Assembly: GCF_005434975.1 (NCBI RefSeq)
Contig: NZ_SKCJ01000001.1
Span: 1,312,001-1,376,000, forward strand
From: Parerythrobacter lutipelagi
GTDB taxonomy: Bacteria > Pseudomonadota > Alphaproteobacteria > Sphingomonadales > Sphingomonadaceae
Reading direction: 5' to 3'
Length of the DNA stretch: 64,000 nt
Shown: piece by piece, positions 6,198 through 28,287 of the stretch
Layout: every line of letters starts with the position of its first letter
Numbering within the stretch: position 1 is the first letter of the stretch
Notes under the pieces: generated by a model
What the model was told of the DNA's origin: nothing
Database searches by the model: none
What the model saw: only the letters and a program-made list of their open reading frames with translations
Program-made: the position numbers and the translations under genes

Positions 6198-7664
6198 ATG
6201 ACCTCGCCACGCCACTCCACGAGGCGGCGCTTGCTGCGCGCCGGCATGGCGTCGCTCACCGGATTATTCCTGATTGGCGCTCAGGGCCAATCAGGCACGC
6301 CATATTCTCCTGCCACTGCATCGACCCGGCAAGTGCCGTCGACCGGGATTATCGATGCCGAGCTGCAGGCTGAAACGAGGCCGGCCTTCGCAGATTTCTA
6401 CGAATCGCTCAGCGAGCACCAGCAACAGACAGTCGTGCAGTTCGCACAAACACAGGAACGCGGCGAGCGCGGGCCGCTGGTCGAGGAAGTACTTCGATTG
6501 CCTGCGCAAGAGCAGGCGCGCTTTGTCTATTTTGTCGGCTTGCTATCGCGCGACGAGAAGGCGCTGGTGGCGAATATGTTGCAAGCGCGCTCGACTGATC
6601 GGTGGCAGGGTCTGTTCGAGTTCTTGCGCGCTGCGCCGCCCGAAGAGGTGCGCAAGACGGTACTTTTCAGCGGCAATGCCCGGTACTGCCCCGACACATA
6701 TGTCGTCGATGGCCACGCGACAGGGGCGGTCTTTCAATGCACGACACCTTCGAAGGACTTCTTGGGGGTTTGGAACACTTCGGTCCAACGGGTAGTGCGC
6801 GGCTCCAGAGCCGATCCGGGGGTCGAAAAATGGCAGGCACAGATCCTGCTGACCGAGCGAGGCTACAACGACCGGGTTAGCGCAGACGTGCTCGCAGACA
6901 TCCGCCGCGTGACCGGTTTCACCGCCAACAAATGGGAAAACTCCCACATCTGCGGCGCGGTTGATATTGGCGGCGGGTGGGTGCTGACCGCCGCTCATTG
7001 CCTGACCAATCATTTTTCACCCGATGCGCGTGTTTTCAGAGAGCTTCAGGTCAGGCTCGGCGCGCGACAGCTGGCAAGGGGCGGGAAGCTTTATGCGATT
7101 GATGCTGTGGTCATCCACGCTGCCTATAGAAGCGTTCAGGGCGGCAAAGATATCGCGCTGCTGCGTCTGAAAAATGCCGCCGGCCTCCCGCGGCCGGTCA
7201 GTGTTTTCAGCAGCGCGCCCAGCACTGCTTCCGGCAACAAGGCGCTGGTCAGCGGTTGGGGCTATACCAGCCCATCGACGCGAGGCAGCAATCTGCTGGA
7301 TATCAACAAGAATCCGCAACGCCTGTCGGACCTGCTGCAGCAAGCGGAATTGTCTCTCTGGCCGCGCAGCGCATGCAACAACAACGCGAAGTTCAAGCAG
7401 AGAAGATATTCGATCACGACGGGTCAGCTGTGCGTCGGCTCGGACGATGGACAGGCCAGTTGCCGTGGCGACAGTGGCGGCCCGTTGGTGGATCGGACCC
7501 GTCGCGGCGCACCGCGCCTGCTCGGGGTGGTTTCCTATGCTCCGGGCTGCGCCCTGGAAGGCGTGCCAACCGTATACACCGATGTCAGCCATTATTCGCA
7601 GTGGATCGCCAACGCGAAAATCGCCGCAGCCAGCGGCCGAGTTGTCCGGATGAATGATCCATAG
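6198..7664 (+). CDS. exported trypsin-fold serine protease with long N-terminal region
   Basis: A 488-residue S1-family protease. The N-terminus has TRRRLLR then a hydrophobic run (residues 17-28), a Tat-like signal. Residues 30-235 form an unassigned helical pro-region. The protease domain starts near R237/V238 (VTGF in place of IVGG) and holds the full triad: His267 in 'WVLTAAHC', Asp318 in 'KDIALLRL', Ser426 in 'GDSGGPL'. In chymotrypsin numbering position 189 is Ala, 216 Ala and 226 Thr, which resembles elastase more than trypsin, so small P1 residues are expected rather than Arg/Lys. It sits in the TIR/SLOG operon, 18 bases before the SLOG gene. Confidence 0.9.
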   Translation: MTSPRHSTRRRLLRAGMASLTGLFLIGAQGQSGTPYSPATASTRQVPSTGIIDAELQAETRPAFADFYESLSEHQQQTVVQFAQTQERGERGPLVEEVLRLPAQEQARFVYFVGLLSRDEKALVANMLQARSTDRWQGLFEFLRAAPPEEVRKTVLFSGNARYCPDTYVVDGHATGAVFQCTTPSKDFLGVWNTSVQRVVRGSRADPGVEKWQAQILLTERGYNDRVSADVLADIRRVTGFTANKWENSHICGAVDIGGGWVLTAAHCLTNHFSPDARVFRELQVRLGARQLARGGKLYAIDAVVIHAAYRSVQGGKDIALLRLKNAAGLPRPVSVFSSAPSTASGNKALVSGWGYTSPSTRGSNLLDINKNPQRLSDLLQQAELSLWPRSACNNNAKFKQRRYSITTGQLCVGSDDGQASCRGDSGGPLVDRTRRGAPRLLGVVSYAPGCALEGVPTVYTDVSHYSQWIANAKIAAASGRVVRMNDP

Positions 7665-7682
7665 GATCAATGCCTTCAATGC

Positions 7683-9740
7683 GTGATTGCCACCACGCTC
7701 CGTGATGCTACACCGCTATGCATGGGAACTGAGGGGGCTTCGGACGGCACAGCGCCGCGCATCCTGCATCTGGGGGTAACCGGCCATCGGGAAGGCAATG
7801 CCGCGTATGATGCCCATGCGGCTGAGATAGAATCGGCGATTTCGCGCTTGTTCGCGGCGCTGGAGCAAAGGCTGGCAGGCCAAAAATCAGGCGGGCAATC
7901 GGGCGGCCAATCGGGTAGCCAATCGGACGGGGAGCCGCGCGAGGCGCCGACTTTCCGCTTGCTGACCAATCTGGCGCATGGCTTCGACTTGATGGCCGCC
8001 GAGAACGCGCTGAAGCGCGGATGGGACCTGTTGGCGCCGCTTCCGTTCGGCAAACAGATCAACCTGGCACTCAACACACCCGGACTTTCGAACGATGAAA
8101 TCGTGGCGGTGGCAAACGGGGGAATTCCGCAGGACCAGAACGCGCACCGTGAATACGAACGCCTGCATGCCGTCAGCGAACGTGCGCGCTGCCTCGAGCT
8201 GGCAGATCAGGACAGCTTCGTGCGCGAAGGTTTGCAGATCCTGACCCGGGTTGCACCAGGATCACGCGCAGCACAGGATGTCTGGCTTCTGGTGGCCGAG
8301 CGCACGCGCGCGGCAAGCATGGTGACGATCGAGCAGTCGGATGTGTTGGTTGCCGTGTGGGACGGCCTGTCGCCCAGCGCATCGGGCGGCACACGCGATA
8401 CCATGACCAAAGCGCTGGCGGCAGAAGTGCCGGTGGTGTGGATCGACGCGCGCAATCCGGCAATGATGCGGATGCTCGCCGATCCGGCGGACCTTGTGGC
8501 TGCGTTGGAGAATCCACGGCCCGACGGGCTCGACCTGATCGTCGAGGCGCTGTCTCAGGCGGCGGAAAGCGCGTGGGAAGAAATGGAGCAGGCGCGTGAC
8601 CATATCGACCCGCTCCACTGGCGCGAGAAATCCTCCTCGCATCTTCATGCCTACCGCCGGATCGAAGCCATGTTCGGCGGCGGCGGGAAAGCGTTCGGAT
8701 CAATCGTCCAGCAGTACGAAAATCCAGACCGGCCGGATGAAACAAGCCTCGGGCCGGTGCTGCGCGAAATGGAGGCACTGCCCGGGGCGGACCGCGATTT
8801 CGTCGATAGAGTGCGGCAGTCGGTGGTGCCCCGCTTTGCCATGGCAGACGGGATCGCCACCTACCTCTCCGATGCCTATCGCGGGGGCATGACCGCAAGC
8901 TTCCTGCTATCGGCGGCTGCGATCATAGGCGGCATTGCCTATCTGCCGCTGGTCGGTCCGGAGCTCAAATGGCCTTTCGCGCTGCTCGAATTCCTGATTC
9001 TGTGCGCCATTGTGGGCATTACCATTGCAGGGACGCGGGGCAATTGGCACCGGCGTTGGTTCGGCACGCGCCGGGTGGCGGAGTATCTGCGGCACACGCC
9101 GATCATGCTGACGCTCGGCTGTGCGCGGCCGATCGGGCGCTGGCCCAAATCGCGCGATGCCAGCTGGCCTGAACTCGATGCGCGGGCCAGAACGATGGTG
9201 CCGGGCCTGCCGGCCATGACCATTACCCACGAATATCTCAAAGAGCATGCGCGGCGCGTGCTGCGGCCCTATCTTGTCGGTCAGCGCGATTACCATCGCG
9301 GCAAGGCGGAACGACTGGAAAAAGTGCACGCCAATCTGGACCATGTATCCGAATGGCTGTTTGTCGCCGCGATCATTTCGGTCGGCGGTTACCTTGTGCT
9401 CAAGTTGCTGGCGGCGTTGTCGTTGATCGATCCTTCGATCCCCGACGGGCTGAGCAAGCTGCTGACTTTCTTCGGCGTTGCCTTTCCGACGCTGGGTGCC
9501 GCATTGGCGGGCATTCGGTATTTCGGCGATTTCGAACGTTTTGCGGCCATCTCCGATGTCACTGCGACCAAGCTGGACCGGTTGCGCCGCAGGGCTGACC
9601 TGCTGATCGAAGGCGACGAGCGTGACGTGAATTATCATGATTTCGTCGATCTTGCCCATGCGATGAGCGACGTAGTGATCGAGGAAATTGAAAGTTGGCA
9701 ATCGATTTTCGGCACGAAAAAAATGGCGGTGCCCGTCTGA
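7683..9740 (+). CDS. SLOG-domain membrane protein (SLATT-like C-terminus)
   Basis: A 685-residue protein. Residues 26-260 look like a SLOG (DprA/LOG-like, Rossmannoid) nucleotide-sensing domain: 'GVTGHR' at 31-36, 'NLAHGFDLMAAENAL' at 96-110, 'LAPLPFG' at 118-123 and 'VLVAVWDG..SASGGT' at 221-237. Two pairs of membrane helices follow (about 403-421/431-450 and 558-578/592-612), separated by a basic, helical linker, as in SLATT/DUF4231-type effectors thought to disrupt membranes on ligand binding. Start is GTG at 7683; an ATG at 7722 is possible. A four-unit 12-bp repeat lies inside the SLOG region. In the operon it would be the likely nucleotide-responsive effector; this role is inference from known SLOG/SLATT systems. 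Confidence 0.85.
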   Translation: MIATTLRDATPLCMGTEGASDGTAPRILHLGVTGHREGNAAYDAHAAEIESAISRLFAALEQRLAGQKSGGQSGGQSGSQSDGEPREAPTFRLLTNLAHGFDLMAAENALKRGWDLLAPLPFGKQINLALNTPGLSNDEIVAVANGGIPQDQNAHREYERLHAVSERARCLELADQDSFVREGLQILTRVAPGSRAAQDVWLLVAERTRAASMVTIEQSDVLVAVWDGLSPSASGGTRDTMTKALAAEVPVVWIDARNPAMMRMLADPADLVAALENPRPDGLDLIVEALSQAAESAWEEMEQARDHIDPLHWREKSSSHLHAYRRIEAMFGGGGKAFGSIVQQYENPDRPDETSLGPVLREMEALPGADRDFVDRVRQSVVPRFAMADGIATYLSDAYRGGMTASFLLSAAAIIGGIAYLPLVGPELKWPFALLEFLILCAIVGITIAGTRGNWHRRWFGTRRVAEYLRHTPIMLTLGCARPIGRWPKSRDASWPELDARARTMVPGLPAMTITHEYLKEHARRVLRPYLVGQRDYHRGKAERLEKVHANLDHVSEWLFVAAIISVGGYLVLKLLAALSLIDPSIPDGLSKLLTFFGVAFPTLGAALAGIRYFGDFERFAAISDVTATKLDRLRRRADLLIEGDERDVNYHDFVDLAHAMSDVVIEEIESWQSIFGTKKMAVPV
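7884..7931 (+). repeat. 12-bp in-frame tandem repeat, four units
   Basis: Four consecutive 12-base units related to CAATCGGGCGGC encode KSGG-QSGG-QSGS-QSDG (residues 68-83 of the SLOG protein), a flexible loop insertion. Such repeats can change copy number without breaking the frame. Confidence 0.85.
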
Positions 9741-9858
9741 AGCGGGCAAATCTCCGCTCTTCCACCGGCATTTGAAATCCCGGCTTTCCAAGCCCGCTCA
9801 GGCTGTTAAGTAATTTTACAGGGAATCGCAGACTGCGGATGGGGGCTTAGCAGAACAG

Positions 9859-11358
9859 ATGGCGCGCACGCAGCGGATCGACGCAATTGTAGTGGGCGGT
9901 GGTCCGGCCGGATCAGCAATGGGCTGGTCGCTCGCCAAACGCGGGATCAATGTCGCAATTGTCGAACGCGCGGTCTTCCCGCGCGAAAAAGTGTGCGGCG
10001 ACTTCGTCGAGCCGGCAGGCTTGCGCATCATCGAGACCATGGGCTGCACGCAAGCGCTCGATTTGGGCAAGCGGCTGCCGATCACACGCAACCGGGTCTA
10101 TTACGAAGCGCGCCTGCCATATCACGGCGAAATTCCGTATTACGACGGTGCGCATGGTATGCCGCCTCATGGCTACATCATCCCGCGTGATCAGCTGGAT
10201 ACGGTGCTGTTGCAGAACGCGGAGGACGCCGGTGCAACGGTGTTTCGCGGCACCTCGGCCAAAGCGCTCGAGCGTGAGGGTGGCGCGAACATCCTCACCG
10301 CGAAGCAGGGCAAGGAAGAACTGAGGATCGAAGCGCCCGTAGTCGTCGGGGCTGACGGGGTGCAATCGATGGTCGCCAAGGCCAAAGACCTGCGGCGCAC
10401 CGACCGGCGGCACATTGGCGCGTCGCAGCGGGTTTATCTCGACAACCTCGACATCGAGGAGGGCGAGGCGACGATCTGGTTCGACGAGGACCAGATCCCC
10501 GGTTACGGCTGGATGTTCCCGATGAACGGCGGGCGCGCCAATATGGGCATCGGCCTGCTGACCGAAACCTGCGACCGGTTCGACATGTCCGTTCAACAGT
10601 GTTTTCGCGACGCTGTCGAGCGGCTGCGCTTTCGCCATCCCGGCTGCCGCAACGCGCGCGTGGCATCCAAGCCGCTGGGCGGTGCGGTGCACATGTACGG
10701 CGGGGTGACGCGCAACCATTTTGCAGGCGGGATACTGGTCGGCGATGCAGGCAGTTTTGTCGACCCGATGACCGGAGAGGGCATTACGCAGGGGATGGAA
10801 AGCTCGATCCTCGGTGCGCGCAGCGTGGCGGCGGCGCTCGAGGCCGGGCAATTCGGCCAAGACCAGTTTGCCAGCTTCGAACACGATTTCCGCGCCTATT
10901 TCGATCCGGCAATGCGTTATCTCGTGCTGCTGGCGCAACTGCTGCGCAACCGGCATTTTCATGAAAGCGTATTCACCGCGACCCGCAAGGGTTTCGAAAA
11001 GGCGCAGGTGGAAAGCAGCTTCGGCGAAATCTCCGGAACCAGCTTCGGCGGGCTTAATGTTCAGCCGCTGGCGATGACGGGCCAGCTGCTGTGGAGTCTG
11101 GCCGACCATTTCCTGCGCGGCGGTGCGGCGGCATTGACCGATGCGCTGCGCGGCCGCGGGTTTACCGCCAACGGGGCGGTTGAGGACCTTCTCGCCTGGC
11201 AGCGCGGTTGGCGCGCCTCGACGGCAGATGACTTGCCGTGGCATATGTCCTGGCTGGGGGACATCGCGAAGGCCGCCGGCGAGCTTGGCCCGTCGTTCCT
11301 GATGGACGAGAATCCCCGGCTGCGCGGACCATTCGCTTTTGTGGAGGGCACATCATGA
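9859..11358 (+). CDS. geranylgeranyl reductase family flavoprotein
   Basis: A 499-residue FAD-dependent oxidoreductase of the geranylgeranyl reductase / p-hydroxybenzoate hydroxylase group. The N-terminal Rossmann motif 'AIVVGGGPAGSAMGWSLAKRG' (residues about 9-29) binds FAD, 'REKVCGDFV' is the family's cysteine-glycine motif, and 'ILVGDAGSFVDPMTGEGI' is the second FAD motif. Enzymes of this family reduce isoprenoid double bonds or oxidise squalene-type lipids. It overlaps the next gene by ATGA and is followed by a prenyl synthase, so an isoprenoid substrate is likely. It could also act as an epoxidase/monooxygenase; sequence alone does not decide. Confidence 0.8.
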   Translation: MARTQRIDAIVVGGGPAGSAMGWSLAKRGINVAIVERAVFPREKVCGDFVEPAGLRIIETMGCTQALDLGKRLPITRNRVYYEARLPYHGEIPYYDGAHGMPPHGYIIPRDQLDTVLLQNAEDAGATVFRGTSAKALEREGGANILTAKQGKEELRIEAPVVVGADGVQSMVAKAKDLRRTDRRHIGASQRVYLDNLDIEEGEATIWFDEDQIPGYGWMFPMNGGRANMGIGLLTETCDRFDMSVQQCFRDAVERLRFRHPGCRNARVASKPLGGAVHMYGGVTRNHFAGGILVGDAGSFVDPMTGEGITQGMESSILGARSVAAALEAGQFGQDQFASFEHDFRAYFDPAMRYLVLLAQLLRNRHFHESVFTATRKGFEKAQVESSFGEISGTSFGGLNVQPLAMTGQLLWSLADHFLRGGAAALTDALRGRGFTANGAVEDLLAWQRGWRASTADDLPWHMSWLGDIAKAAGELGPSFLMDENPRLRGPFAFVEGTS

Positions 11359-13457
11359 GCACGAAGACCAAGGTCAAACCGAAGAAAGCCGCCTCGAAGG
11401 CGAAAAGGCCCGCTGCAAAGAAATCCGCGCCGAAGAGCAAGCCGAAGACAGCCAAGTCGGGTGCGGCAACAGCGCGTAATGCGCTCGCCGCGCCGGAAGT
11501 GGCCGTGGTTGGCGGCGGGCTCGCCGGGATGACCGCGGCGCTCAAACTGTTGCAGGCCGGTTTCAAGGTTACTCTGTTCGAGCGCTACGACCGGCTTGGC
11601 GGCAACACGTCGTCGCAGGCGGTGAACGGGGTCGAACACGATGTATATCCGCACATGTTCTGCGACTGGTATGCCAATTTCTGGAGCCTCTTCGAGCAAG
11701 ATCTCGGCCTGAAGCGCGAAGATCATTTTGTCGCGCACCCCGGTAGCATGATGCTGGCGCCGGGATCGGATGACTATGTGAACATGCTCAACCCGACTTC
11801 GCTTGAAGCAGTGGTTGCGAACATGAAGTCGGGTTCGATGTCCCCGGCCGAGCTGGTGCTGCTGGGCTACTCGGGGGTCGATCTGGCGGCGCAGGGATTC
11901 GATTCCGACGGGCTTAACCAGATGGAAAAGCTCGACGTAAACGGCTTCCTCTATTCGCGCGGCTACGCGACCGAAGCCGTGGCAGAGATGCAGAACTATC
12001 TCCTGACACTGGTTTGGTCGATCGACAGTGCGAAGACTTCGGCCCGGACCTACGGAAATTTCCTCCAGCACTCGCTGCGCTTTCCCGACCATTCACCGTT
12101 CGACTGGCTGCTGAAGAACAGCCTGAACGCCGGGCTCGTGGAACCCTTGCGGGCGAAGCTGGAAGAACTGGGTTGCTCGATCCGCACCAACGCGGATGTG
12201 CAGTCGGTCCGCCTCGATGACGACCAGCGCCCGATGCTGCGCTGGCAGGCGGATGGGGCTAAACGAACCAGCGCAAAGACCTTTGACTTTGGTGTGCTTG
12301 CCGTCCCTTCGGCTGTGCTGGCGGACATCGTGATGTGCCGCAAGGCCGGTATCGGCGGCAAACGGATCATCGATTGCGAGCCCGAGCTGGCGAATCTGCG
12401 CCGCCTGTCGAGCGCGGCCATCCCGGTGCTCGACCTGTATCTGAAGGAAAAGCTGGACGATTTCCCGATCGACAGTATCGGTCTCGCCGGATCGAATTAT
12501 GGTCTCACCGCGCTCGATATCTCGCAGTTGTGGCCAGCAGAATTGTTCGACGGCAAGTCCGCACTGATCATCGCTGCGTCCGATGGCGATGCGATCCCGT
12601 CCGAAAATCCGCACGAAGCCGCGATGCTGATGCTGGCCGAGCTCGCACGTTTCTATCCGCAGTTCGAAGGGGTGAAGCATTGGGGTGATCCCGACAGCAT
12701 CATCGACTGGGACAAGTCGCATATGCGGCTGAACCTCGACTACAAGCTGTTCCTCGATGATACCGGCAGCTGGAGCTGGCGGCCCAGGGCGAGCTACCCG
12801 GAAGGTCTGCCACGGCTCACCTTTGCCGGCGATCTGTGCCGCACTGATGTCGAGATGGCGACAATGGAAGGCGCAGTTCAGAGCGGCACGCTGGCCGCAG
12901 CGGCAGTCCAGGCGCAGGATGCCGCGCAGACCGGCAAGGCACGCGGCAACCCGATAGAAGATGTCCCGCACAGGCTCTATTCCCCGACCACGTTTCGCGC
13001 GGCGAAGCTGCTCCTGCTGCCGGCCGCTTACGCCGCCTATTCGCTCGTGGCGCTCAAACGGTATCGCGCTGCAAAGGCTTCGGGCGGCGACCATGCGGGT
13101 GAAGCGCTGGCGACCCTAATCGAGGATCTGGCGCTTGTTCCGCCCAAAGCGGCGACCGAGCTGGGGCAGGGCGCCTACTCGTTTTATCGCAGTCTCGTCG
13201 ATCGGGACGAAGAAGATCCAGGCGATGAGAAGATCGGCCTGAGTGCCGCTGCGCTCATGGTGCTGGGCGAGATCGCGGATTATGCCGCATCGCAAGTCGG
13301 CGGCGAGAAACGCGCTGCGCCCGAGACCGCAGCGGGGCAGGCCTTTGAGGGCGTGCTCGGCCAGATCGCCGGTATCGCGGGCAGGGCCTATGGCACCATG
13401 CGCGCTGCGGCCGATCAATCCTGTTCGACCAAGCGCCGCTGGCGTGTGAAGCGCTGA
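11355..13457 (+). CDS. CrtI/HpnE-like FAD-dependent oxidoreductase with basic Lys/Ala/Pro N-terminal tail
   Basis: A 700-residue flavoprotein. Residues 1-37 are a Lys/Ala/Pro-rich tail like a histone H1 or HU tail, which is odd on such an enzyme. From residue about 49 'EVAVVGGGLAGMTAALKLL' and 'FERYDRLGGNTSSQ' form the amine-oxidase/phytoene-desaturase-type FAD site, and 'LTFAGDLCRTDVEMATMEGAVQSG' is the C-terminal FAD motif. Residues about 540-700 are an extra helical domain not typical of CrtI. The ATG overlaps the previous stop (ATGA), and a polyprenyl synthetase follows after 13 bases. It probably desaturates or dehydroxylates an isoprenoid; the substrate is unknown. Confidence 0.8.
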   Translation: MSTKTKVKPKKAASKAKRPAAKKSAPKSKPKTAKSGAATARNALAAPEVAVVGGGLAGMTAALKLLQAGFKVTLFERYDRLGGNTSSQAVNGVEHDVYPHMFCDWYANFWSLFEQDLGLKREDHFVAHPGSMMLAPGSDDYVNMLNPTSLEAVVANMKSGSMSPAELVLLGYSGVDLAAQGFDSDGLNQMEKLDVNGFLYSRGYATEAVAEMQNYLLTLVWSIDSAKTSARTYGNFLQHSLRFPDHSPFDWLLKNSLNAGLVEPLRAKLEELGCSIRTNADVQSVRLDDDQRPMLRWQADGAKRTSAKTFDFGVLAVPSAVLADIVMCRKAGIGGKRIIDCEPELANLRRLSSAAIPVLDLYLKEKLDDFPIDSIGLAGSNYGLTALDISQLWPAELFDGKSALIIAASDGDAIPSENPHEAAMLMLAELARFYPQFEGVKHWGDPDSIIDWDKSHMRLNLDYKLFLDDTGSWSWRPRASYPEGLPRLTFAGDLCRTDVEMATMEGAVQSGTLAAAAVQAQDAAQTGKARGNPIEDVPHRLYSPTTFRAAKLLLLPAAYAAYSLVALKRYRAAKASGGDHAGEALATLIEDLALVPPKAATELGQGAYSFYRSLVDRDEEDPGDEKIGLSAAALMVLGEIADYAASQVGGEKRAAPETAAGQAFEGVLGQIAGIAGRAYGTMRAAADQSCSTKRRWRVKR

Positions 13458-13470
13458 AGGAGCTCTGGAC

Positions 13471-14400
13471 TTGGACACAGTCACCAAAGGCATCGTTGCA
13501 GACCTCGGCTTCGTCCCGGAGATGGACCGGCTGCGCGAACGGTTATTCGCGTGGATCGCGGATTCCAGCGAGGAAATGCGGCCGCTGCTCGAATGGCAGT
13601 TCAACGCCGGATCAAAATACTTCCGGCCGTTGACGATTTTTGGCTGCTACCGCGCGCAACAGGGGGGGGAGATTCCGGACAGCATCATCCGCTCAGCCGC
13701 AGTGCTCGAGATGATGCATAACATGACGCTGGTGATCGACGATATCCTCGACCTGTCGGACGAGCGGCGCGGCAAGCCGACCATGCATGCGAAATTCGGC
13801 AATCTGCCCGCGCTGATGGCGTCTGGATTTATCGCGGCAGACGGTTTTGCGCTGGTGGCGGATGACGCGCACGATATCCGCCTGATTGCCGATCTCGTCA
13901 AACGGTTGGGTGTCGCCGAATGCGCGCAGTGGCGCTTGCGCCGACAACCGCTCGGCGTGAAGGACTGGGAGATGATCGCAGGCGAGGACACTGGCTCGAT
14001 GTTCGAGACCTGCGCTTGCCTCGCGACGCGTGACGAGAGCATGCGCAAGTTCGGCCGACTGATCGGGATGCTCTATCACGGGTGTGACGACGTGGGCGAC
14101 GTGAAGGGGCTTGAATCGCTTGGCGGCGGGGGCGAGGAGGATTTGCGCGATGGCATCCTTACGCTTCCCGCTGCTCTGGCGATCGAGGACGAGGATATCT
14201 GCGAACTCTTCTGCCGGGAGAATCCCTCCGACGCGGACCTCCAGCGTATTTCGAAAGAGATGCTTGATCGCTTGCCCGACGCCGAAGCGCATCTCGATCA
14301 GATCGCGACCGATGCCAAATGGGAAGCACAAGTGAACACCGGCGACCCGGGCGTGCTGCTTGAACTGGTCGATTACACGCGCGAGCTATCGCGCCGGTAG
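13471..14400 (+). CDS. polyprenyl synthetase family protein (isoprenyl diphosphate synthase)
   Basis: A 309-residue trans-isoprenyl diphosphate synthase. The first Asp-rich motif is DDILD (residues 90-94) followed by 'ERRGKP', and the second is DDVGD (206-210), so both magnesium-binding sites are intact. The positions 4-5 residues before the first motif are Thr86 and Met85, not aromatic, which fits a product longer than FPP; that is inference. Start is TTG at 13471 behind a strong GAAGGAG site. It ends the isoprenoid operon and runs tail-to-tail into the TIR-ATPase gene 8 bases away. Confidence 0.9.
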   Translation: MDTVTKGIVADLGFVPEMDRLRERLFAWIADSSEEMRPLLEWQFNAGSKYFRPLTIFGCYRAQQGGEIPDSIIRSAAVLEMMHNMTLVIDDILDLSDERRGKPTMHAKFGNLPALMASGFIAADGFALVADDAHDIRLIADLVKRLGVAECAQWRLRRQPLGVKDWEMIAGEDTGSMFETCACLATRDESMRKFGRLIGMLYHGCDDVGDVKGLESLGGGGEEDLRDGILTLPAALAIEDEDICELFCRENPSDADLQRISKEMLDRLPDAEAHLDQIATDAKWEAQVNTGDPGVLLELVDYTRELSRR

Positions 14401-20908: not shown

Positions 20909-21892
20909 ATGGCTCGACCCGACCCTCCCCGATTGCAGGAATCACACGCGAATTCGCCTGTCGTGGGCGTGATTTACAATCCGCGCAGCCATCGCAACCA
21001 AGGCAAGGACCTCGACTTCGCTTCGCGAGAAAATGTCCACTTCGCACAACCGCGCGATCATGCAGAGATCCGGTCGACCTTGGAAGATTTTGTCGAGCGC
21101 GGCATCGAGTATCTGATCATCAATGGCGGTGACGGCACGGTGCGTGACGTGCTGACCTGCGGAATGGGCGTATTTGGCGACAACTGGCCCGCAATCGCCG
21201 TGCTTCCCAAAGGCAAGACCAATGCGCTGAACGTCGATTTGGGGGCGCCCAATGGCTACAATCTGATCGACGCGATCGATGCCTACGAGCGCGGCAGTCG
21301 AGTGCTTCGCCGCCCTCTTGTGGTGACGCCGCTTGACGGTGGCGGCACGCCGCTGGCTGGCTTTATCCTTGGCACCGGGGGCTTTACATTGGGGATTCAG
21401 GCTGGACAGGACGCGCACCGCATGGGCGCTTTCAACAGTCTGGCGGTCGGCGTTACAGCAGCCTGGGGCGTGATTCAGGCGCTGTTCGGAAGCGATGCCA
21501 ACAAATGGCGCCGCGGGTCCAGGATGGAACTGTTGATTGGCCCCGGTCGCACGCCGTTGCCGCATACCGGGCATGGATATGAAGGACGGCGCGCGGTGAT
21601 GTTGGCGTCGACGCTTGAACGTTTCCCGGTCGGCCTGAAGCTGTTCGGCAAGCACAAAACCGGGCTCAAGATCACTGCGATGGACCGGCCGCGCCGCGCT
21701 TTGCTGGCCGCGCTGCCCAAAATCCTGTTTGCCGGTCCGGGCGAGAAAGCTGCAGCGCGCGGCCTTCATCAGCATGCGGTCGAGACATTCGAATTTGCCA
21801 TCGAAGACGATTTCATTCTCGATGGCGAAGCGTTTGCAGGCGGGCATTACCGGGTTGATCCCGGACCAGCGCTGCGCTTCGTCGTACCGTGA
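20909..21892 (+). CDS. diacylglycerol kinase family lipid kinase
   Basis: A 327-residue lipid kinase of the DAGK/ceramide/sphingosine kinase catalytic family. 'GVIYNPRSHRNQGK' opens the domain and 'INGGDGTVRDVL' is the ATP-binding GGDGT motif. The start ATG at 20909 was chosen because upstream in-frame residues overlap the divergent peptidase gene and lack family similarity. The stop overlaps the next GTG start (GTGA), so the two are translationally coupled. It probably phosphorylates diacylglycerol or, as Sphingomonadales make sphingolipids, ceramide; the choice is open. Confidence 0.85.
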   Translation: MARPDPPRLQESHANSPVVGVIYNPRSHRNQGKDLDFASRENVHFAQPRDHAEIRSTLEDFVERGIEYLIINGGDGTVRDVLTCGMGVFGDNWPAIAVLPKGKTNALNVDLGAPNGYNLIDAIDAYERGSRVLRRPLVVTPLDGGGTPLAGFILGTGGFTLGIQAGQDAHRMGAFNSLAVGVTAAWGVIQALFGSDANKWRRGSRMELLIGPGRTPLPHTGHGYEGRRAVMLASTLERFPVGLKLFGKHKTGLKITAMDRPRRALLAALPKILFAGPGEKAAARGLHQHAVETFEFAIEDDFILDGEAFAGGHYRVDPGPALRFVVP

Positions 21893-22782
21893 ACGAGACG
21901 CTCGGAAGCCGAATAGCCGCGCGGCTGGATGCGCCTGTCAGGCCCGAGGTCGCGCAATTTGCGGAGAATCTGGCTGCAGCAGCGGGTGCGGATGCGGCGC
22001 TGTTTTATGGTTCCAACTTGCGCACCGGCGAACTTGAAGGCGTGCTTGATTTCTACCTGCTCCAGCCAGGCCCGCAGCGCGAGCGGATCTGGCCGCGGGT
22101 CAGCTATCACGAATGGGAGACCGGCGGGACCGTGCTACGCGCCAAAGTGGCTGCGATGTCGCTCGAGCAGTTCAGGCGAGCTGCTGCCGGCGATTCCCGG
22201 GATACGACGATTTGGGCCCGGTTCGTGCAACCCAGCGCGCTGGTCTGGGCGCGAAGTGCTGATTTTCGCTCGCAAGTCATCGATGCGCTGGCCGAGGCGG
22301 CCAGAACGGCCGCCCGGCTGGCTGCCGCGCTGGGCCCGGAAAGCGGATTGGCGGCCGACTATTGGCGTGCGCTGTTCCGCGCCACATACCAGGCTGAATT
22401 CCGGGTTGAGAAATCGGGCCGTGAAGACTCGATCCTGTCAGTCAACCAAGCGCATTTCGATGGCCTTTTGCCGCTCGCATGGGGAGCGGATGGAGTGGCG
22501 TTTTCGCAGGAAAGCGGCGTTCTTACCCCGCAGATCGAGGCGGCCCGGCGCCGCCAGATCAAGCGGTGGTGGGGGTCACGGAGGCGGTGGGGCAAGCCGC
22601 TCAACCTGATACGGCTGGCAAAGGCCAGCACCACCTTCGACGGCGCCGCGCGCTACGCCGCATGGAAGATCGAACGTCATACGGGCATTGCCATGGAAGT
22701 GACGCCTTGGCGCGAAAAGCATCCGTTGCTTGCCGCTCCCGGCGTGCTGTTCAAACTGTGGCGGGCACAGCGCAAGCAGTGA
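21889..22782 (+). CDS. unknown protein, possible Tam41-like nucleotidyltransferase
   Basis: A 297-residue protein with no signal peptide. Residues about 33-60 read 'ADAALFYGSNLRTGELEGVLDFYLL', with G-S ... D spacing like nucleotidyltransferase folds and reminiscent of Tam41/Mmp37 CDP-DAG synthases ('YGSG' then 'D.I'). Start is GTG overlapping the lipid kinase stop. A kinase making a phospholipid head (phosphatidate or ceramide phosphate) coupled to a cytidylyltransferase would make biochemical sense. The family assignment is by eye and weak; the operon link is firm. Confidence 0.6.
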   Translation: MNETLGSRIAARLDAPVRPEVAQFAENLAAAAGADAALFYGSNLRTGELEGVLDFYLLQPGPQRERIWPRVSYHEWETGGTVLRAKVAAMSLEQFRRAAAGDSRDTTIWARFVQPSALVWARSADFRSQVIDALAEAARTAARLAAALGPESGLAADYWRALFRATYQAEFRVEKSGREDSILSVNQAHFDGLLPLAWGADGVAFSQESGVLTPQIEAARRRQIKRWWGSRRRWGKPLNLIRLAKASTTFDGAARYAAWKIERHTGIAMEVTPWREKHPLLAAPGVLFKLWRAQRKQ

Positions 22783-22788
22783 TGCCGA

Positions 22789-23280
22789 TCACATATAGCG
22801 CATCCGGATGGTGATCGAGCTCGGGCTGTCGCCAACCGAAAACTGCGTCTTCTTGTAACTTGGTTTGCCCAGATTGAAGATGTTGATCGACGGATTGTTC
22901 GACATGCCCCCGCCGTCCTGCGACAGGTCGGTCTTGCCATTGCCGTTGGTGTCGTGGCGTACGGCGATGCCGTACACGCCCGGCCCCGGCAGCGGCATGC
23001 ACACCGTCATCGATCCCTTGCTTGCTGGCAGTTCGATGCGATTGATCCAACGGCCCTTTTCCAGCCAGTCGGCCTTCGTGCCGCGATAGCTCTGGACGCG
23101 AATGTTTCCGGACGAGGTCTCGATGCCGGTGATATTCACTTTAACGGACGAGCCCGAGCGGCATTTGCCGGGATCGTGGGCAATCTTCTGGCGATATTGT
23201 GCGGCTGCCGGACCAGCGAGCACGAGGCCTGCTGCGGCAAGCGCCATGGTCCCGAATTTTAAGGTCTGCTTGATGCTCAT
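22789..23280 (-). CDS. DUF2141 family exported protein (second copy)
   Basis: A 163-residue secreted DUF2141 protein. The start ATG at 23280 follows CAGGGAC and gives a clean signal peptide (MSIKQTLKFGTMALAAAG..., cleavage near AQYRQ). The mature part has 'NIRVQSYRG', 'VRHDTNGNGKTDLSQDG', a calcium-loop-like motif, and ends in 'ITIRMRYM', as in the 408-911 paralogue. It runs convergently to the lipid kinase pair with only a 6-base gap and is downstream of the RiPP exporter gene, 147 bases away, so it may have its own promoter. Confidence 0.85.
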   Translation of the reverse strand: MSIKQTLKFGTMALAAAGLVLAGPAAAQYRQKIAHDPGKCRSGSSVKVNITGIETSSGNIRVQSYRGTKADWLEKGRWINRIELPASKGSMTVCMPLPGPGVYGIAVRHDTNGNGKTDLSQDGGGMSNNPSINIFNLGKPSYKKTQFSVGDSPSSITIRMRYM

Positions 23281-23427
23281 GCTCGAAAGTCCCTGGAAAT
23301 ATCTGGCTATGCGGCGCAGTCGCGGCGCCTGAAGAATCTGTGTCGGGATACCCCTGTGTTGCAAACCGGGTAAGCCGCAGCCCCTGAATTGCGCCTGAAT
23401 TCGAAGGTTAAGCTGCGTTCAAGCTGG

Positions 23428-25104
23428 TCACGAAACAACGCGCCCCGCGTCCATCGCCACCGTCCGGTCGGCGAGTTCGGACAGGACCCCGCGATGGGTG
23501 ATGACGAGGATCGTACAGCTTCCCCGCATGGCCTCGATCGCGTCTGCCACTTCCCGTTCTGCCGCGGCATCGAGCGCGCTGGTGGCTTCATCGAGGATCA
23601 GCAGGGACGGATCGCGCAGTAAGCCGCGCGCCAGGACGATGCGCTGACGCTCGCCGCCTGAAAGGTGCCGTCCGGAATCGCCAACGGGTGTATCGAGGCC
23701 CTGGGGCAGGTCGAGGACGAACGCCGCGTGGGCCCGGCGCAGTGCTGCGTGCAATGCGGCGTCATCTGCGTCCTGATCAGCCCAGAGCAGATTGTCCCGC
23801 ACCGAGCCATGGAACAGCACCGCTTCCTGCTGGACATAGGCGACACGGCTGCGCCAGCCATGGCGGTCGCCCGGTTGCATCACTTTCCCGTCGAGCAGGA
23901 TTTCGCCACTGTCCGGCGCGATCAGTCCTCCTAGCACATCGGCCAGGGTGCTTTTGCCGCAGCCAGACGGGCCGGTCAGAGCGATGATGGAATTGGCTGC
24001 CCCTTCGAGAGAGACGCGGTCGACTGCGGGCAAGCCTGCGCGGTGCTGGACTGTAATGTTCCGCACTTCAAACGCTTGTTCGAGTGTGTGGGCTTGCGCA
24101 GGCCCCGCTCCCTGCTGCTCCCTTGCAGCCTCTGCGGTTTCGATCAGCGCCCTGACTTCGTGCAGGGCTGGTGCAGCGTGCGACCAGTCCTGCCATTGCT
24201 CTTGCAAGCCAGCGAGTTGCGGTACGGCCCGCGCGAAAATCGCAATCAGCGGCAACAGCATGGCGCTGTCGAAGCTCCAGCGTGTCACAGCGAACCAAAC
24301 TATCGCGGCGAGCACGATTGCCCCTGCGATCTGGAGCATCAGCCGGGCGAGGCTCGACTGCGCAATATAGCGGCGCTGCACCTTGCGCATATCGGTAAAG
24401 CCGCTTCGGGCTTCCTCGACCATGCGATCTTCGGCTCCGAAGCTCTTGATGATCCGCAACCCGTCGAGTGTTTTCTCCAGATTGCCGAACACGGCCTTGT
24501 TGCGCCCCGTCAGCGCCTCGCCAAGCTTGCCGGCATTGCGGCGAAGTCCGCGATAGAGCAGCAGCACAAGGCCGCCAGCAAGCACGCCCGCCAAGGCGAA
24601 GAGCGGCGAGATCACCAGCGCGGCCAGGGCAACTGCAACAAGATTGAGCCCTGTCGTGACCAGCGAGAAGAGGCTTGCCGACGCCAGCCCGGCCCGTTCC
24701 ACCGCAGTCAGCAAAAGCGCGCGATTATCGCTCTGACGCTGTCGCGCGAGGAAACGCCAGTCAGCGGCGACCAGAGCTGCAATCGCCCGGTGACGCAACC
24801 CGTCAACGATGCCCATCCGGATGTCGAAAGCGATCAGCTTGCGCAGGAATTCGGCGCAAGCCCGCAGCGCGAGCAGGCCGACGAATATGCCGAGCAGAGT
24901 CCCGAGAGAGGGCAGAGGGCCAAGCCATTCCATCGCCCCCGCCAGCTGACCGGTCGCCCGGCCTCCCAGCGTGGCATCGACCAGCGGGACGAGCATGACG
25001 AAACCGGCCCCTTCGAGCGCTGCACCCAGAACACTCAACGCGCCCAGCGCCCACAGGCGCGGTCCTCGTGCGAGGCGGATCAGGTCGGAGAGAGTTGCGC
25101 GCAT
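23428..25104 (-). CDS. ABC transporter, fused membrane and ATPase domains (RiPP exporter, D)
   Basis: A half-transporter of about 558 residues with six membrane helices and a C-terminal ATPase: Walker A GPSGCGKST (about residues 378-386 from this start), signature LSGGERQR, Walker B LLILDEATSALD, and the switch histidine in ITHRG. No N-terminal C39 peptidase domain, so it does not itself cleave a leader. ATG 25104 is preferred; a TTG at 25128 is in frame. It starts just after the cyclase stop, so it is the last gene of the RiPP unit and should export the mature peptide and confer self-protection, as McjD-type D proteins do. Confidence 0.88.
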   Translation of the reverse strand: MRATLSDLIRLARGPRLWALGALSVLGAALEGAGFVMLVPLVDATLGGRATGQLAGAMEWLGPLPSLGTLLGIFVGLLALRACAEFLRKLIAFDIRMGIVDGLRHRAIAALVAADWRFLARQRQSDNRALLLTAVERAGLASASLFSLVTTGLNLVAVALAALVISPLFALAGVLAGGLVLLLYRGLRRNAGKLGEALTGRNKAVFGNLEKTLDGLRIIKSFGAEDRMVEEARSGFTDMRKVQRRYIAQSSLARLMLQIAGAIVLAAIVWFAVTRWSFDSAMLLPLIAIFARAVPQLAGLQEQWQDWSHAAPALHEVRALIETAEAAREQQGAGPAQAHTLEQAFEVRNITVQHRAGLPAVDRVSLEGAANSIIALTGPSGCGKSTLADVLGGLIAPDSGEILLDGKVMQPGDRHGWRSRVAYVQQEAVLFHGSVRDNLLWADQDADDAALHAALRRAHAAFVLDLPQGLDTPVGDSGRHLSGGERQRIVLARGLLRDPSLLILDEATSALDAAAEREVADAIEAMRGSCTILVITHRGVLSELADRTVAMDAGRVVS

Positions 25105-25141
25105 GGTCGGTGCAAGGCTTGCCCGCAATTCGACCGCGCTG

Positions 25142-26992
25142 TCAAAGGTCGTTTCGCCCTTCGATCACGGCAACGAATTGTGCGGCGAGTATCGCGCGCG
25201 GTATCGCGAGCATGCGCGGCCAGTCCTGCTCGATGTCATGCCCGCCTTGTTCGGGCCATTCGCGCAGCATCCGGTCAAGCCGGTCAATATCGAGAACTTG
25301 GCTCAGAAAATCATGGCTCCGCATGGTGTTCAGGGCGGTGCGATATTCTTCCCGCTTACACCCTATTGCTTGGTGCCAGTCCGCATTGTGGCGACCGTAG
25401 TCCGTGTTGAGCCGCTGCGCGTCCGGCATGCGGCCTTTGCCCAAGCCCCGAGCTAGCTTTCTTTCCATACCCTCGCTTGCAAAACTCTCTGTCGGCAAGC
25501 CGATGCAATATTCGATCAGCGGGCGATAGGCTGTCACGTCGCGCCGGTTCACCCGATACAATTGTTCAAATGCCAGCATGACATCGGCTTTCTCGCTATC
25601 GGCAGCAAAATGATCGTGCCTCAACGCCGCCACGCGGTCTGGGGAGAATGTCTGATCCGCCCAATCGGAGCCACTGCCGCGCTCACGTGCGCGCTCAGCC
25701 TGCGTCGCCGCCGCCTGCTTCGAAAGCGGAGTCAGCAAAGCAACCATATCGCGCCGTTTCGGGTGAACCAGCGACCTGAGCCCCGATCGTACCGGATGCG
25801 GCAGTTGAGGCAGGATGCTGAGTGCGAGCAGTTTGCGGGCCAGAGAACGACTGTCACCAGGGCGGTTGTCCAGAAGTCTGGCAAGTTCGGCCCATCGCCC
25901 GCTGCGCGCATATTCAACATAGGCCCACCGTCCATCCTGGCTAAAGCTCTGGTTGGCGAGGTCTGCGACCATCAGCGTATCGCGCCCAAGCCCCTTCGCT
26001 TTGGCAAAGACTGCGTGGAAGGCTTCGACATTGGCCAAGCCCGGAGCAAACACTTGCATGGCGCGCAGCATTTCCCGGTTGGTCTCGCCGGTGCGTGCGG
26101 TGTCGCGGACAACGAAGTGCGGTTCGATGCGCGTATGCAGTCTGGCGAATGATCGGACATAGCCGGATTCGTCGCTCATCGTGCCCGGCGCGTCCGCCCC
26201 TTGCCAATCTGGGCTGGGGGTGAAGGTGATCGATGGCAGCGAAGCGCCCGGTACCATTGCGTCAAGCAGAGCGCAGGCTGCCAGCGGCGAGTCCAGCCCG
26301 CCGGACAGTGCGATTGCCGGTCTCTGCGAGATGCGGAGCGCCTTGCCTGCCGCTTCGCACAGCAAGGCATAGGTCTGGTCGGCCGCATCGGGCGGAGCTT
26401 CAGTGTGGTCTGAGAGGAACTGAGCCGGATCGTACCAGCGACCGACCGACCATTTGCCCGGCGCGCAGTGTACGACGCTGCCCAACGGCACGGAGTGTAT
26501 GCCGCGGTACCAGCTGTGTGCCTCGCCATCGCGAAAGTCGTAAGCCAGCTGATCGACGATTTTGTCGTAGTCGAGGACTTTTTCGACCCCAGCAGCAAAC
26601 AACAAGCGCAGCAGAGGCGAAGCAGCAAAATGCCGATCATTGCTCGCAAAATGCAGCGGTGGCGCATCCCAGGGCGAACGCGACAAGCGCCAACTGCCGT
26701 CAACCAGTCGCGCAATGGCTGCGTAGTTTCCTAGCAGATGTGCGTCTGCCTGATCGCCCCACCGGTTCAGAGCCAGTGCATAGGCTTGCCGCGGGTTGTC
26801 GTTCGCCTGTTCGATCAGCCAATCCGGGCCGTCGATTGTCCCCAGAATTGCAATATCGAGAGCAGCGCCGGGCACCGCCATACCGTGATCTACGGTCATG
26901 AGCGAGGGATCTGCAAATCCTCGCATCTGGCGCTTCAGTTCGGCAGGAGGCTTGCGGTCAGGCCTGCCCCATTGCTGCCATGCGGCGATCAA
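25142..26992 (-). CDS. asparagine-synthetase-like lasso peptide cyclase (C)
   Basis: A 616-residue asparagine synthetase B homologue. The PP-loop ATP pyrophosphatase motif SGGLDS lies at residues 230-235. The N-terminal glutaminase-like half has no catalytic Cys2 and is degenerate, as expected for lasso cyclases that adenylate an Asp/Glu side chain of the precursor and close a macrolactam ring. A TGA lies two codons upstream, so TTG at 26992 is the first possible start. Its neighbours are a precursor with a WxxPxLxxxG leader, an RRE protein and an exporter. A true asparagine synthetase is less likely because of the lost cysteine and the context. Confidence 0.87.
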   Translation of the reverse strand: MIAAWQQWGRPDRKPPAELKRQMRGFADPSLMTVDHGMAVPGAALDIAILGTIDGPDWLIEQANDNPRQAYALALNRWGDQADAHLLGNYAAIARLVDGSWRLSRSPWDAPPLHFASNDRHFAASPLLRLLFAAGVEKVLDYDKIVDQLAYDFRDGEAHSWYRGIHSVPLGSVVHCAPGKWSVGRWYDPAQFLSDHTEAPPDAADQTYALLCEAAGKALRISQRPAIALSGGLDSPLAACALLDAMVPGASLPSITFTPSPDWQGADAPGTMSDESGYVRSFARLHTRIEPHFVVRDTARTGETNREMLRAMQVFAPGLANVEAFHAVFAKAKGLGRDTLMVADLANQSFSQDGRWAYVEYARSGRWAELARLLDNRPGDSRSLARKLLALSILPQLPHPVRSGLRSLVHPKRRDMVALLTPLSKQAAATQAERARERGSGSDWADQTFSPDRVAALRHDHFAADSEKADVMLAFEQLYRVNRRDVTAYRPLIEYCIGLPTESFASEGMERKLARGLGKGRMPDAQRLNTDYGRHNADWHQAIGCKREEYRTALNTMRSHDFLSQVLDIDRLDRMLREWPEQGGHDIEQDWPRMLAIPRAILAAQFVAVIEGRNDL

Positions 26993-27026
26993 CGCTCAAT
27001 CCCAATTCCCGCCAGATCGGCGGCTG

Positions 27027-27173
27027 TCAGGATTTTCGATTGCCGGCATCTTGATCGACCGGAACTGGTCTGCCCGCCACATCGGCGATCGACCCGACGT
27101 GCTTGAGCTCGGGTGTAGACCAAGGTTCGGCCTGTGGCATCCTGCCGGTTTTCGAGGCACTTTTCTTGCGCAT
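27027..27173 (-). CDS. lasso-type RiPP precursor peptide (A), 48 aa
   Basis: ATG at 27173 opens a 48-codon frame ending in TGA at 27027, lying between B1 and C on the same strand. Residues 18-27 read W-S-T-P-E-L-K-H-V-G, an exact W version of the YxxPxLxxxG motif that lasso leaders use to bind the RRE protein, followed by S-I-A-D-V. The likely core is the end: starting at Ala33 or Gly34, R-P-V-P-V-D-Q-D-A-G-N-R-K-S. From Ala33 an 8-residue ring would close at Asp40; from Gly34, rings of 7 (Asp40) or 9 (Asp42). The usual Thr at leader position -2 is missing in every register. The C-terminal Ser recalls paeninodin-type precursors. The gene call is fairly firm, the core boundaries are inference. 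Confidence 0.75.
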   Translation of the reverse strand: MRKKSASKTGRMPQAEPWSTPELKHVGSIADVAGRPVPVDQDAGNRKS

Positions 27174-27216
27174 TGTGTTACTCTACGCCTTCGACCCATT
27201 TCGCGCAATGCGCAGC

Positions 27217-27480
27217 TTAAGATGTTACAATACCCGCGCTTCTTGCATCGTGAAGAAATCGATCAACGTCAGGTTCCAGGGCCGCTCGCTCCATATCGAA
27301 TTGCTCTGCCAGGGCTGAGATAAGTGTGTCGCGCGTCGGACCTGCGTCCAGCTCACGCCAGATCGCTCGTGCTGTGCCTTCGACCGAATACATCTGTCCA
27401 TTATCGAGCTGGACGATGATCGTCTCGTCATCGACATCCGTCTCGATGAGGTCGCTGCAGGCCTTGCGGATCTTCTTCAT
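27217..27480 (-). CDS. PqqD/RRE-family leader-binding protein (B1)
   Basis: An 87-residue PqqD-like protein. The typical pattern is visible: 'DETIIVQLDNGQMYSVEGTARAIWREL' and a C-terminal 'LISALAEQF....LEPDVDRFLHDARSAGIV', i.e. three beta strands followed by winged-helix helices. Such proteins bind the leader of a RiPP precursor and present it to the peptidase and cyclase. It is the first gene of the minus-strand RiPP unit, 43 bases before the precursor, and shares a 144-base divergent upstream region with rpe. Confidence 0.88.
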   Translation of the reverse strand: MKKIRKACSDLIETDVDDETIIVQLDNGQMYSVEGTARAIWRELDAGPTRDTLISALAEQFDMERAALEPDVDRFLHDARSAGIVTS

Positions 27481-27624
27481 TCGCCAGTTCTAATCGCAAA
27501 ACCGCTTGGGGGCCATGGGCCGAATTGCGGGGACAGTGTGGAAAAACGCCCGCCACCAGCTTGTGGCAGCGATTCGCGCGCTCTACGCCGGACTGTGACC
27601 CGAGACACGTAACCAAAGTTGGCC

Positions 27625-28287
27625 ATGGCCCGTCCGCTAATATCTCCTTCGATCCTGTCTGCCGATTTCGCTCGGCTGGGCGAAGAAGTGCGGGCGATCG
27701 ACGAGGCCGGGGCGGACTGGATCCATGTCGATGTGATGGACGGGCATTATGTGCCCAATATCACTATCGGCCCGGCGGTGGTTAAAGCCTTGCGGCCGCA
27801 CACATCGAAGCCGTTCGATGTCCATCTGATGATTGCGCCGGTTGATCCCTATCTCGAAGAATTCGCCGAGGCCGGGGCGGATATCATCACGATCCATCCC
27901 GAAGCGGGGCCGCACGCGCATCGCACGCTGCAGGCTATCGGCAAGCTGGGCAAGAAAGCCGGGGTCGTGCTCAACCCGGGAACGCCGGTCGAAGCGCTCG
28001 ATTACTTGCTCGACCTGACCGATCTGGTGCTGGTGATGAGCGTCAATCCGGGTTTCGGCGGGCAGAGCTTCATCGACAGCCAGCTGCGCAAGGTCGAGGC
28101 CATTCGTGAGCGTATCGGGCGCATCGGGAAGCCCATCCACCTTGAGGTCGATGGCGGGGTCAATTCCGAAACTGCGCGGCAATGCGTCGACGCAGGGGCC
28201 GATGTGCTGGTTGCCGGCAGCGCCACTTTCAAAGGCGGTCCGAGCCAATATGCCGCCAATATCGCGGCATTGAAGGGGGGCAATTGA
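27625..28287 (+). CDS. rpe: ribulose-phosphate 3-epimerase
   Basis: A 220-residue TIM-barrel enzyme interconverting ribulose 5-phosphate and xylulose 5-phosphate in the pentose phosphate pathway. '[17 protein letters not shown]', '[19 protein letters not shown]', 'DVHLMI', '[14 protein letters not shown]' and '[10 protein letters not shown]' are family signatures including the metal-binding His/Asp residues. ATG at 27625 is preferred to a TTG two codons earlier. Its stop overlaps the heparinase-like gene start (TGATG). Confidence 0.97.

Follow-up and report, generated by a model that had tools for sequence, protein, structure and literature searches.

A lasso-like RiPP locus in Parerythrobacter lutipelagi that probably relies on a leader peptidase and a kinase encoded elsewhere in the genome

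Phosphorylated lasso peptides of the paeninodin/BsfA type are ribosomally synthesized and post-translationally modified peptides (RiPPs) that are made by an A-B1-B2-C-D gene set together with an HprK-like kinase. For BsfA, a ring between Gly1 and Asp8 and an Ile at leader position -2 are predicted in PMC10368454 (Duan 2023), which also reports Val/Ile at -2 with Gly1 in Sphingomonadales, in silico. The C-terminal Ser is the kinase target of paeninodin, according to PMC9266682. A further relative, the family of linear polyphosphorylated peptides (LPP), combines a lasso-like RiPP recognition element (RRE), a [Y/W]xxP leader, an HprK-like kinase and a transporter; according to PMC13381572, it uses a SipW-like signal peptidase and no cyclase, and its product is thought to be linear. 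Here we analyze a 64,000-nucleotide stretch of the Parerythrobacter lutipelagi genome (contig NZ_SKCJ01000001.1, positions 1,312,001 to 1,376,000; the window), in which a lasso-type gene set, B1-A-C-D, lies on the minus strand between 27480 and 23428. It has in common with the paeninodin/BsfA type discrete B1 and B2 proteins, a W/YxxPxL leader, an AsnB-like C, an ABC exporter, a kinase and a C-terminal Ser, and unlike the LPP clusters it keeps the cyclase. It differs from the paeninodin/BsfA type in that B2 and the kinase are found at two other loci and in that the ring-acceptor column of the precursor family is mostly Gln. We think it probable that the window holds one of three parts of a dispersed, phospho-lasso-like RiPP pathway, with B2 and probably also the kinase acting in trans. 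The features of the locus and its flanks are:

27217..27480, minus strand: B1, a stand-alone RRE protein (PqqD-like) of 87 amino acids; PF05402 at E 6.6e-17 and 62 bits (cut-off 23.4).
27027..27173, minus strand: A, the precursor, 48 amino acids; open reading frame (ORF) with a WSTPELKHVG leader, placed in an alignment with the other 41 family precursors.
25142..26992, minus strand: C, an AsnB-like macrolactam cyclase of 616 amino acids; PF00733 at E 1.2e-6 and 28.9 bits (cut-off 21).
23428..25128, minus strand: D, an ABC exporter (permease-ATPase) of 566 amino acids; PF00664 (ABC_membrane) and PF00005 (ABC_tran).
27619..28287, plus strand: rpe, the conserved right flank of the insertion site, outside the pathway and named from its sequence; neighbour of the locus in 40 of the 42 genomes of the family.
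22789..23364, minus strand: a DUF2141 protein (PF09912), the left flank, outside the pathway; adjoins many family loci.

All four ORFs are intact. The gaps between B1, A, C and D measure 43, 34 and 13 bp, with 138 bp up to the rpe ORF as called, and there is therefore no room for B2 at the locus. A profile search of the whole genome returned no PF13471 match above cut-off within the window; a missed or frameshifted B2 inside the locus was ruled out by this search and by reading the ORFs. B1 reaches 38 bits with NF033536 (lasso_PqqD), below the cut-off of 80, and its closest chain among solved structures is 5v1u TbiB1 (E 1.3e-6). The cyclase carries SGGLDS at residues 230-235 and starts with MIAAW, without Cys2. 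It scores 36 bits with the lasso cyclase family NF033535, far below the cut-off of 525, and gave no solved-structure match at E ≤ 0.1. No C39 peptidase domain was found in D among the 21 families listed. An earlier sequence-only reading of this DNA had described a lasso-type B1-A-C-D set on one strand without B2 at the locus, a C with SGGLDS and without Cys2, and an exporter without a C39 domain, all of which our analysis bears out.

A search of the whole genome for B2, which the sequence-only reading had proposed, located one lasso B2 on the other contig. A single PF13471 match exceeds the cut-off (C2:274669-274977), with three weaker ones below it. The ORF (G000:C2:274642-275085, where G000 is the window's genome) encodes 147 amino acids, scores 58 bits with NF033537 (lasso_biosyn_B2, cut-off 33) and starts 12 bp past acs on the same strand, with an acyl-CoA dehydrogenase gene on its other side; Pfam gives acyl-CoA dehydrogenase only, and the name gcdh used here is our own closer reading. 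Cys85, His120 and Trp122 are kept in 70 of 70 aligned B2 sequences, and we take Cys85 and His120 to be the probable catalytic residues. The comparison with solved structures gave a single weak match (E 0.26). About 17.5 kb from B2 on the same contig lies a second PqqD and AsnB pair (L017, G000:C2:285001-300000, about 7600-14400), accompanied by an HprK-like kinase (by alignment), an Asp/Asn hydroxylase, two sulfotransferases, a nucleotidyltransferase and, by eye, a putative glycosyltransferase. This type-2 locus likewise is without a B2 of its own in the window's genome, as are the related loci of G015 and G104. The precursor of the type-2 locus in the window's genome (MTDRKSSDASRSAWKKPSVRSITPVKRTAAGPVRRTIEDPFYNPS) has a canonical appearance, with Glu as core residue 9 if Thr is leader -2, and with a C-terminal Ser. 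One B2 may thus serve two pathways.

To describe how B2 is placed across relatives we use a family of 42 genomes, 41 with a precursor bearing the family leader and one (G082) whose locus is cut by a contig end; G082 (66%) and G135 and G342 (77% each) are incomplete genomes. The genome samples are related, and all counts are of genomes, not of events. Gene contexts come mostly from tblastn with queries from the genome itself, a procedure that weak D or kinase genes could escape. Every one of the 42 genomes has a B2, which lies beside C in 18 (counting G082, whose B2 is on a separate contig next to rpe) and elsewhere in the genome in 24. The locus is away from rpe only in G273 and G391, and in relatives such as G036, G026, G093 and G171 kinase, B1, B2, A, C and D stand in a row at this same site. 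The sequence-only reading had considered that related genomes might encode the normal set and that this strain carries a deletion. The 18 genomes bear out the former; the latter fails, the B2-less state being common to 24 of 42 genomes. On a cyclase tree of 41 family members and four sisters (G273, for which a true AsnB ORF had been picked, is left out), the cis/trans label changes five times, at least four of the changes being forced by well supported branches. B2 has thus left the cluster more than once, or has returned to it.

The association of C with B2 also holds in larger samples. Homologues of C (E ≤ 1e-10) occur in 33 of 199 genomes of the organism's family, and a PF13471 gene above cut-off in 33 of 33 C-positive compared with 50 of 166 C-negative genomes (Fisher 3e-15, relatedness not corrected). 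At E ≤ 1e-40, C was found in 57 of 397 genomes of a wider sample, in many genera, and the 28 further C-positive genomes from that sample all carry PF13471 and PqqD. This recurrence, together with the shared rpe flank, shows that the genes have not come together by accident. Among named genomes a scan with the window's C alone gave no match, and one with an alignment of nine C proteins gave 24 loci; this cyclase is present in records named, among others, Pontixanthobacter, Qipengyuania, Parapontixanthobacter, Actirhodobacter and Erythrobacter.

Where B2 is encoded in trans, one site recurs: 12 of the 24 genomes have it at the gcdh site (G000, G015, G058, G078, G062, G086, G197, G238, G304, G332, G353 and G392). 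In the others it accompanies a type-2 cluster (G221, G258, G342), stands beside Nuc- and D-like genes (G037) or next to the PqqD and cyclase genes of a different cluster (G002, G158, G096), lies 6-9 kb off, beyond the flank (G065, G135), or has no PqqD nearby (G092, G207, G273). Nine genomes (G058, G078, G062, G086, G197, G238, G304, G332, G392) hold one PqqD at E ≤ 0.001, the B1 of the locus, and one B2, that of the gcdh site, which there is thus without any other PqqD-bearing partner. In a tree of 70 B2 sequences, a subset of all B2 matches, the eight gcdh-site B2s included form one clade (support 100/96) with the B2s of G120, G037 and G016, separate from the B2s beside C.

Some further features of these loci are recorded here. 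With the window's D as the tblastn query, D was not found at L079, L082, L087, L089, L151, L155 and L161 (B2 elsewhere) nor at L165 (B2 beside C). L081 (G065) has A, C and D with no B1 beside them by tblastn, and across the dgk flank a small separate cluster of PqqD, B2, nucleotidyltransferase-like and ABC exporter-like genes. L102, L103 and L106 (G002, G158, G096) belong to a third type of cluster, which combines genes for B2, PqqD, a sulfotransferase, a cyclase and a kinase and whose precursors end in ...FTQE[IV]L...TP(P)S. In the window itself, positions 21889-22782 encode a 297-residue protein without a Pfam match, beside a diacylglycerol-kinase-like gene; it adjoins the locus in many relatives.

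The kinase shows a similar dispersal. In the window's genome a kinase gene divergent from purC (G000:C1:236697-237587) matches Hpr_kinase_C at 34.9 bits (cut-off 33.3), and we read in its sequence the H, GESGHGKS and DD residues of the H-GxxGxGKS-DD motif that PMC10368454 gives for lasso kinases. There is also a likeness to the HPr-rel-A system, the kinase matching TIGR04352 (40.5 bits, cut-off 200) and B1 matching TIGR04353 (27 bits, cut-off 35), both below the curated cut-offs. Orthologues of the purC-type kinase (E ≤ 1.5e-58, next match 6e-33) occur in 16 of the 199 genomes, and these coincide exactly with the family members in the sample whose cluster has no adjacent kinase. Kinase and purC are 0.1-1.5 kb apart in all 11 genomes inspected. 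A profile built from seven HprK-like kinases found matches in all 41 family genomes given to it (G082 was not among them): 16 have the kinase beside B1 (G036, G026, G093, G171, G119, G177, G217, G220, G254, G257, G318, G341, G381, G391, G273, G092), and the remaining 25 have a long kinase match elsewhere in the genome. Within genera, four genomes without the family locus are also without the purC-type kinase (G104 of g1, G120 and G178 of g37, G146 of g78).

Precursor candidates were small ORFs with [WYF]xxPx[LIVMAFY] near the cyclase and on its strand, Gln being no part of the filter. From these one ORF per family locus (two in G015) was kept by eye, carrying the family leader and lying between B1 and C. 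The resulting 42 precursors come from 41 genomes and leave out G082 (none obtained, contig end), the sisters G226 and G360, and a further sister, G047. The window's A carries the W/YxxPxL RRE-binding motif, its leader ending in ...WSTPELKHVGSIADVA and its predicted core being GRPVPVDQDAGNRKS, with Gln8 between Asp7 and Asp9 and a C-terminal Ser. Leaders end in D-[VI]-A throughout the family (Asp in 40 of 42, Val/Ile in 42, Ala in 40), Val/Ile being one element of the pattern used to place the boundary ([DENA][VI][AK]), and the first residue past the leader is Gly in 32. The C-terminal residue is Ser in 41 of 42 and Thr in the remaining one. At the acceptor column (residue 8 counting Gly as 1, or 9 counting Ala as 1), 35 of the 42 precursors have Gln, two Glu (G093, G217), one Asp (G341) and four another residue; the best column in 5000 shuffles of the 42 cores reached 17. 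Cores lacking Asp and Glu number 24 of 42, and an acid at core residues 7-9 is present in 15 if Ala is leader -1, or in 12 or 7 under the other two numberings. Our core numbering follows that of BsfA in Duan 2023, and the alternative one the arrangement in paeninodin.

A hold-out set gave the same picture. Scanning 21 of the 24 loci from the named genomes (L213-L215 lay outside the scan) yielded 10 precursors already known and eight new ones, from records named Qipengyuania, Erythrobacter and a Sphingomonadales metagenome-assembled genome; three loci (L206, L210, L211) gave none. All eight new precursors have Gln in the column and seven are acid-free, bringing the totals to 43 of 50 for Gln and 31 of 50 for acid-free cores, in which canonical lasso closure therefore looks impossible. 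The window's core has Asp7 and Asp9 beside Gln8 and so would not by itself reveal the Gln pattern; either Asp could serve canonical closure there. In the sisters G226 and G360 the Gln column holds Asp, and in G047 an Asp follows one position further on. We considered loss of the GGDE motif in C as the cause of the Gln and rejected it, since the (A/G)N form is also found in sisters whose acceptor is Asp. G015 has two precursor genes in its locus (L078:7200-7650), both with Gln in the acceptor column. Given that B2 is not in the cluster and that, on the predicted cores, the acid rule would be obeyed in the window and not in most relatives, we speak of a lasso-like locus and not of a lasso peptide cluster.

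The cyclase appears to be maintained. Its SGG-D-S signature is kept in the family, with SGG changed to GGG in G096 and a few single changes elsewhere, and the adenylating enzyme thus seems active, though most cores offer no side-chain acid. Ratios of nonsynonymous to synonymous substitution (dN/dS) are 0.10-0.27 for C (five pairs), 0.13-0.29 for B2 (three pairs) and 0.16-0.24 for A (two pairs), rough values because dS is 1.0-1.6, near saturation; between the window and G015 they are 0.27 for C and 0.16-0.24 for A, at a dS of 1.4-1.6.

We propose that B1 would bind the WxxPxL leader of A, that the HprK-like kinase near purC would phosphorylate the C-terminal Ser, and that the genome's single B2 from the acs/gcdh site, recruited by B1, would cut the leader after Val-Ala; C would then act on the freed core and D would export the product. 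The genomes themselves hold the genes and their sites, the co-occurrence, the Cys and His of B2, the conserved leader, the acceptor column and the terminal Ser. Each enzymatic step, the cleavage site and the action of B2 and the kinase on this precursor are predictions from these. Of the options named by the sequence-only reading, an outside protease is the best supported, that protease probably being the genome's own B2; going by sequence, the leader might also stay on. Several observations weigh against a dispersed pathway. In the window's genome and in G015 the B2 could instead serve the second lasso locus, itself without B2, and the gcdh-site B2s are phylogenetically closer to those of type-2 clusters (G120, G037) than to the family B2s beside C. 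In 12 of the 24 trans genomes B2 is away from the gcdh site, and a PF13471 gene is also present in 50 of the 166 genomes without a C homologue. Kinase and B2 both sit among housekeeping genes, and four of the 25 distant kinases (G060, G207, G332, G353) have stop codons inside the match; these four may be disrupted, or the match may extend beyond the gene end, and the match of G060 in the orthologue search has none. Finally, all of the chemistry is deduced from sequence, the enzymatic action included.

The alternative most directly at odds with a B2 acting in trans is that the gcdh-site B2 belongs to the type-2 cluster only and that the window's precursor is cut by some unrelated protease or stays unprocessed. 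The window's genome, G015 and G104 each have, 8-18 kb from this B2, a type-2 cluster with no B2 of its own, and G104 has the gcdh-site B2 but no locus of the window's family; a related B2 sits with a type-2 cluster in G120, G221, G258 and G342, and pseudomycoidin is, by the title of Zyubko 2019, made in vivo without leader and leader peptidase. The nine genomes whose single PqqD is that of the family locus, and the presence of B2 in each of the 42 family genomes, speak the other way, and we consider this alternative unlikely. That the locus is a decaying remnant, with B2 lost and the rest on its way out, was another option of the sequence-only reading. Relatives do have B2 at the site, and D too escaped tblastn in seven B2-less loci; the intact ORFs, the low dN/dS of A, C and B2 (including the comparison with G015), the spread of the same set over many genera and of the B2-less state over 24 of 42 genomes, and a trans kinase kept in step with the locus make decay highly improbable.

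What product the dispersed pathway would make is a separate matter. A peptide that is not a lasso, either linear as in LPP or activated by C at another carboxylate such as the C terminus, would be compatible with a B2 in trans, and we regard it as a real possibility that falls short of probable. The 31 acid-free cores and the LPP precedent of a lasso-like RRE with a kinase and a presumed linear product suggest it, whereas LPP clusters have no cyclase and C is conserved here with its SGG-D-S signature; the recurrence of Gln at one column (43 of 50) of cores that otherwise vary also argues for a specific use of that residue. We put forward, as a tentative and somewhat doubtful proposal, that the ring is closed on Gln8 with the freed N terminus, at a net loss of ammonia, giving a lasso or lariat product. 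Direct transamidation by C, or by B2 with its transglutaminase fold, could achieve this; alternatively, an enzyme could first deamidate Gln8, with ATP-driven closure to follow. It is quite improbable that we have misplaced the boundary between leader and core and that the ring closes instead on the conserved leader Asp of D-V/I-A (40 of 42 precursors, with Glu in one more). No other acid of the precursor is so nearly invariant, but if this Asp were residue 7 or 8, position 1 would fall on a variable residue (often His, Arg or Lys), and if it were residue 9, on the Leu of the RRE-binding motif; moreover, in the sisters G226 and G360 the leader Asp is missing in register, and the Gln column holds Asp.

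One published lasso pathway has, by the title of the paper, a split operon. In the open-licence papers searched we found neither the recurrent remote B2 site, nor the locus-tracking kinase site, nor the Gln column, and no paper linking lasso peptide macrolactams with deamidation. The readings predict different masses, the shift being -17.03 Da for a ring on Gln, -18.01 Da for a ring on Asp and 0 for a linear peptide; the search for core peptides minus one water suggested by the sequence-only reading would miss a Gln-closed ring, because Gln closure loses ammonia net.

RiPP miners judge a locus by its neighbours, and loci with a remote B2 and kinase may be dropped as incomplete. The family offers a natural system for asking if B1 is enough to recruit a distant B2 and if two pathways share one B2. 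Gln at the acceptor column, often in acid-free cores, questions the rule that lasso cyclases need Asp or Glu. A ring on Gln, if true, would add a new ring-forming chemistry to lasso-type RiPPs, carried out by enzymes encoded at three separate places in the genome.

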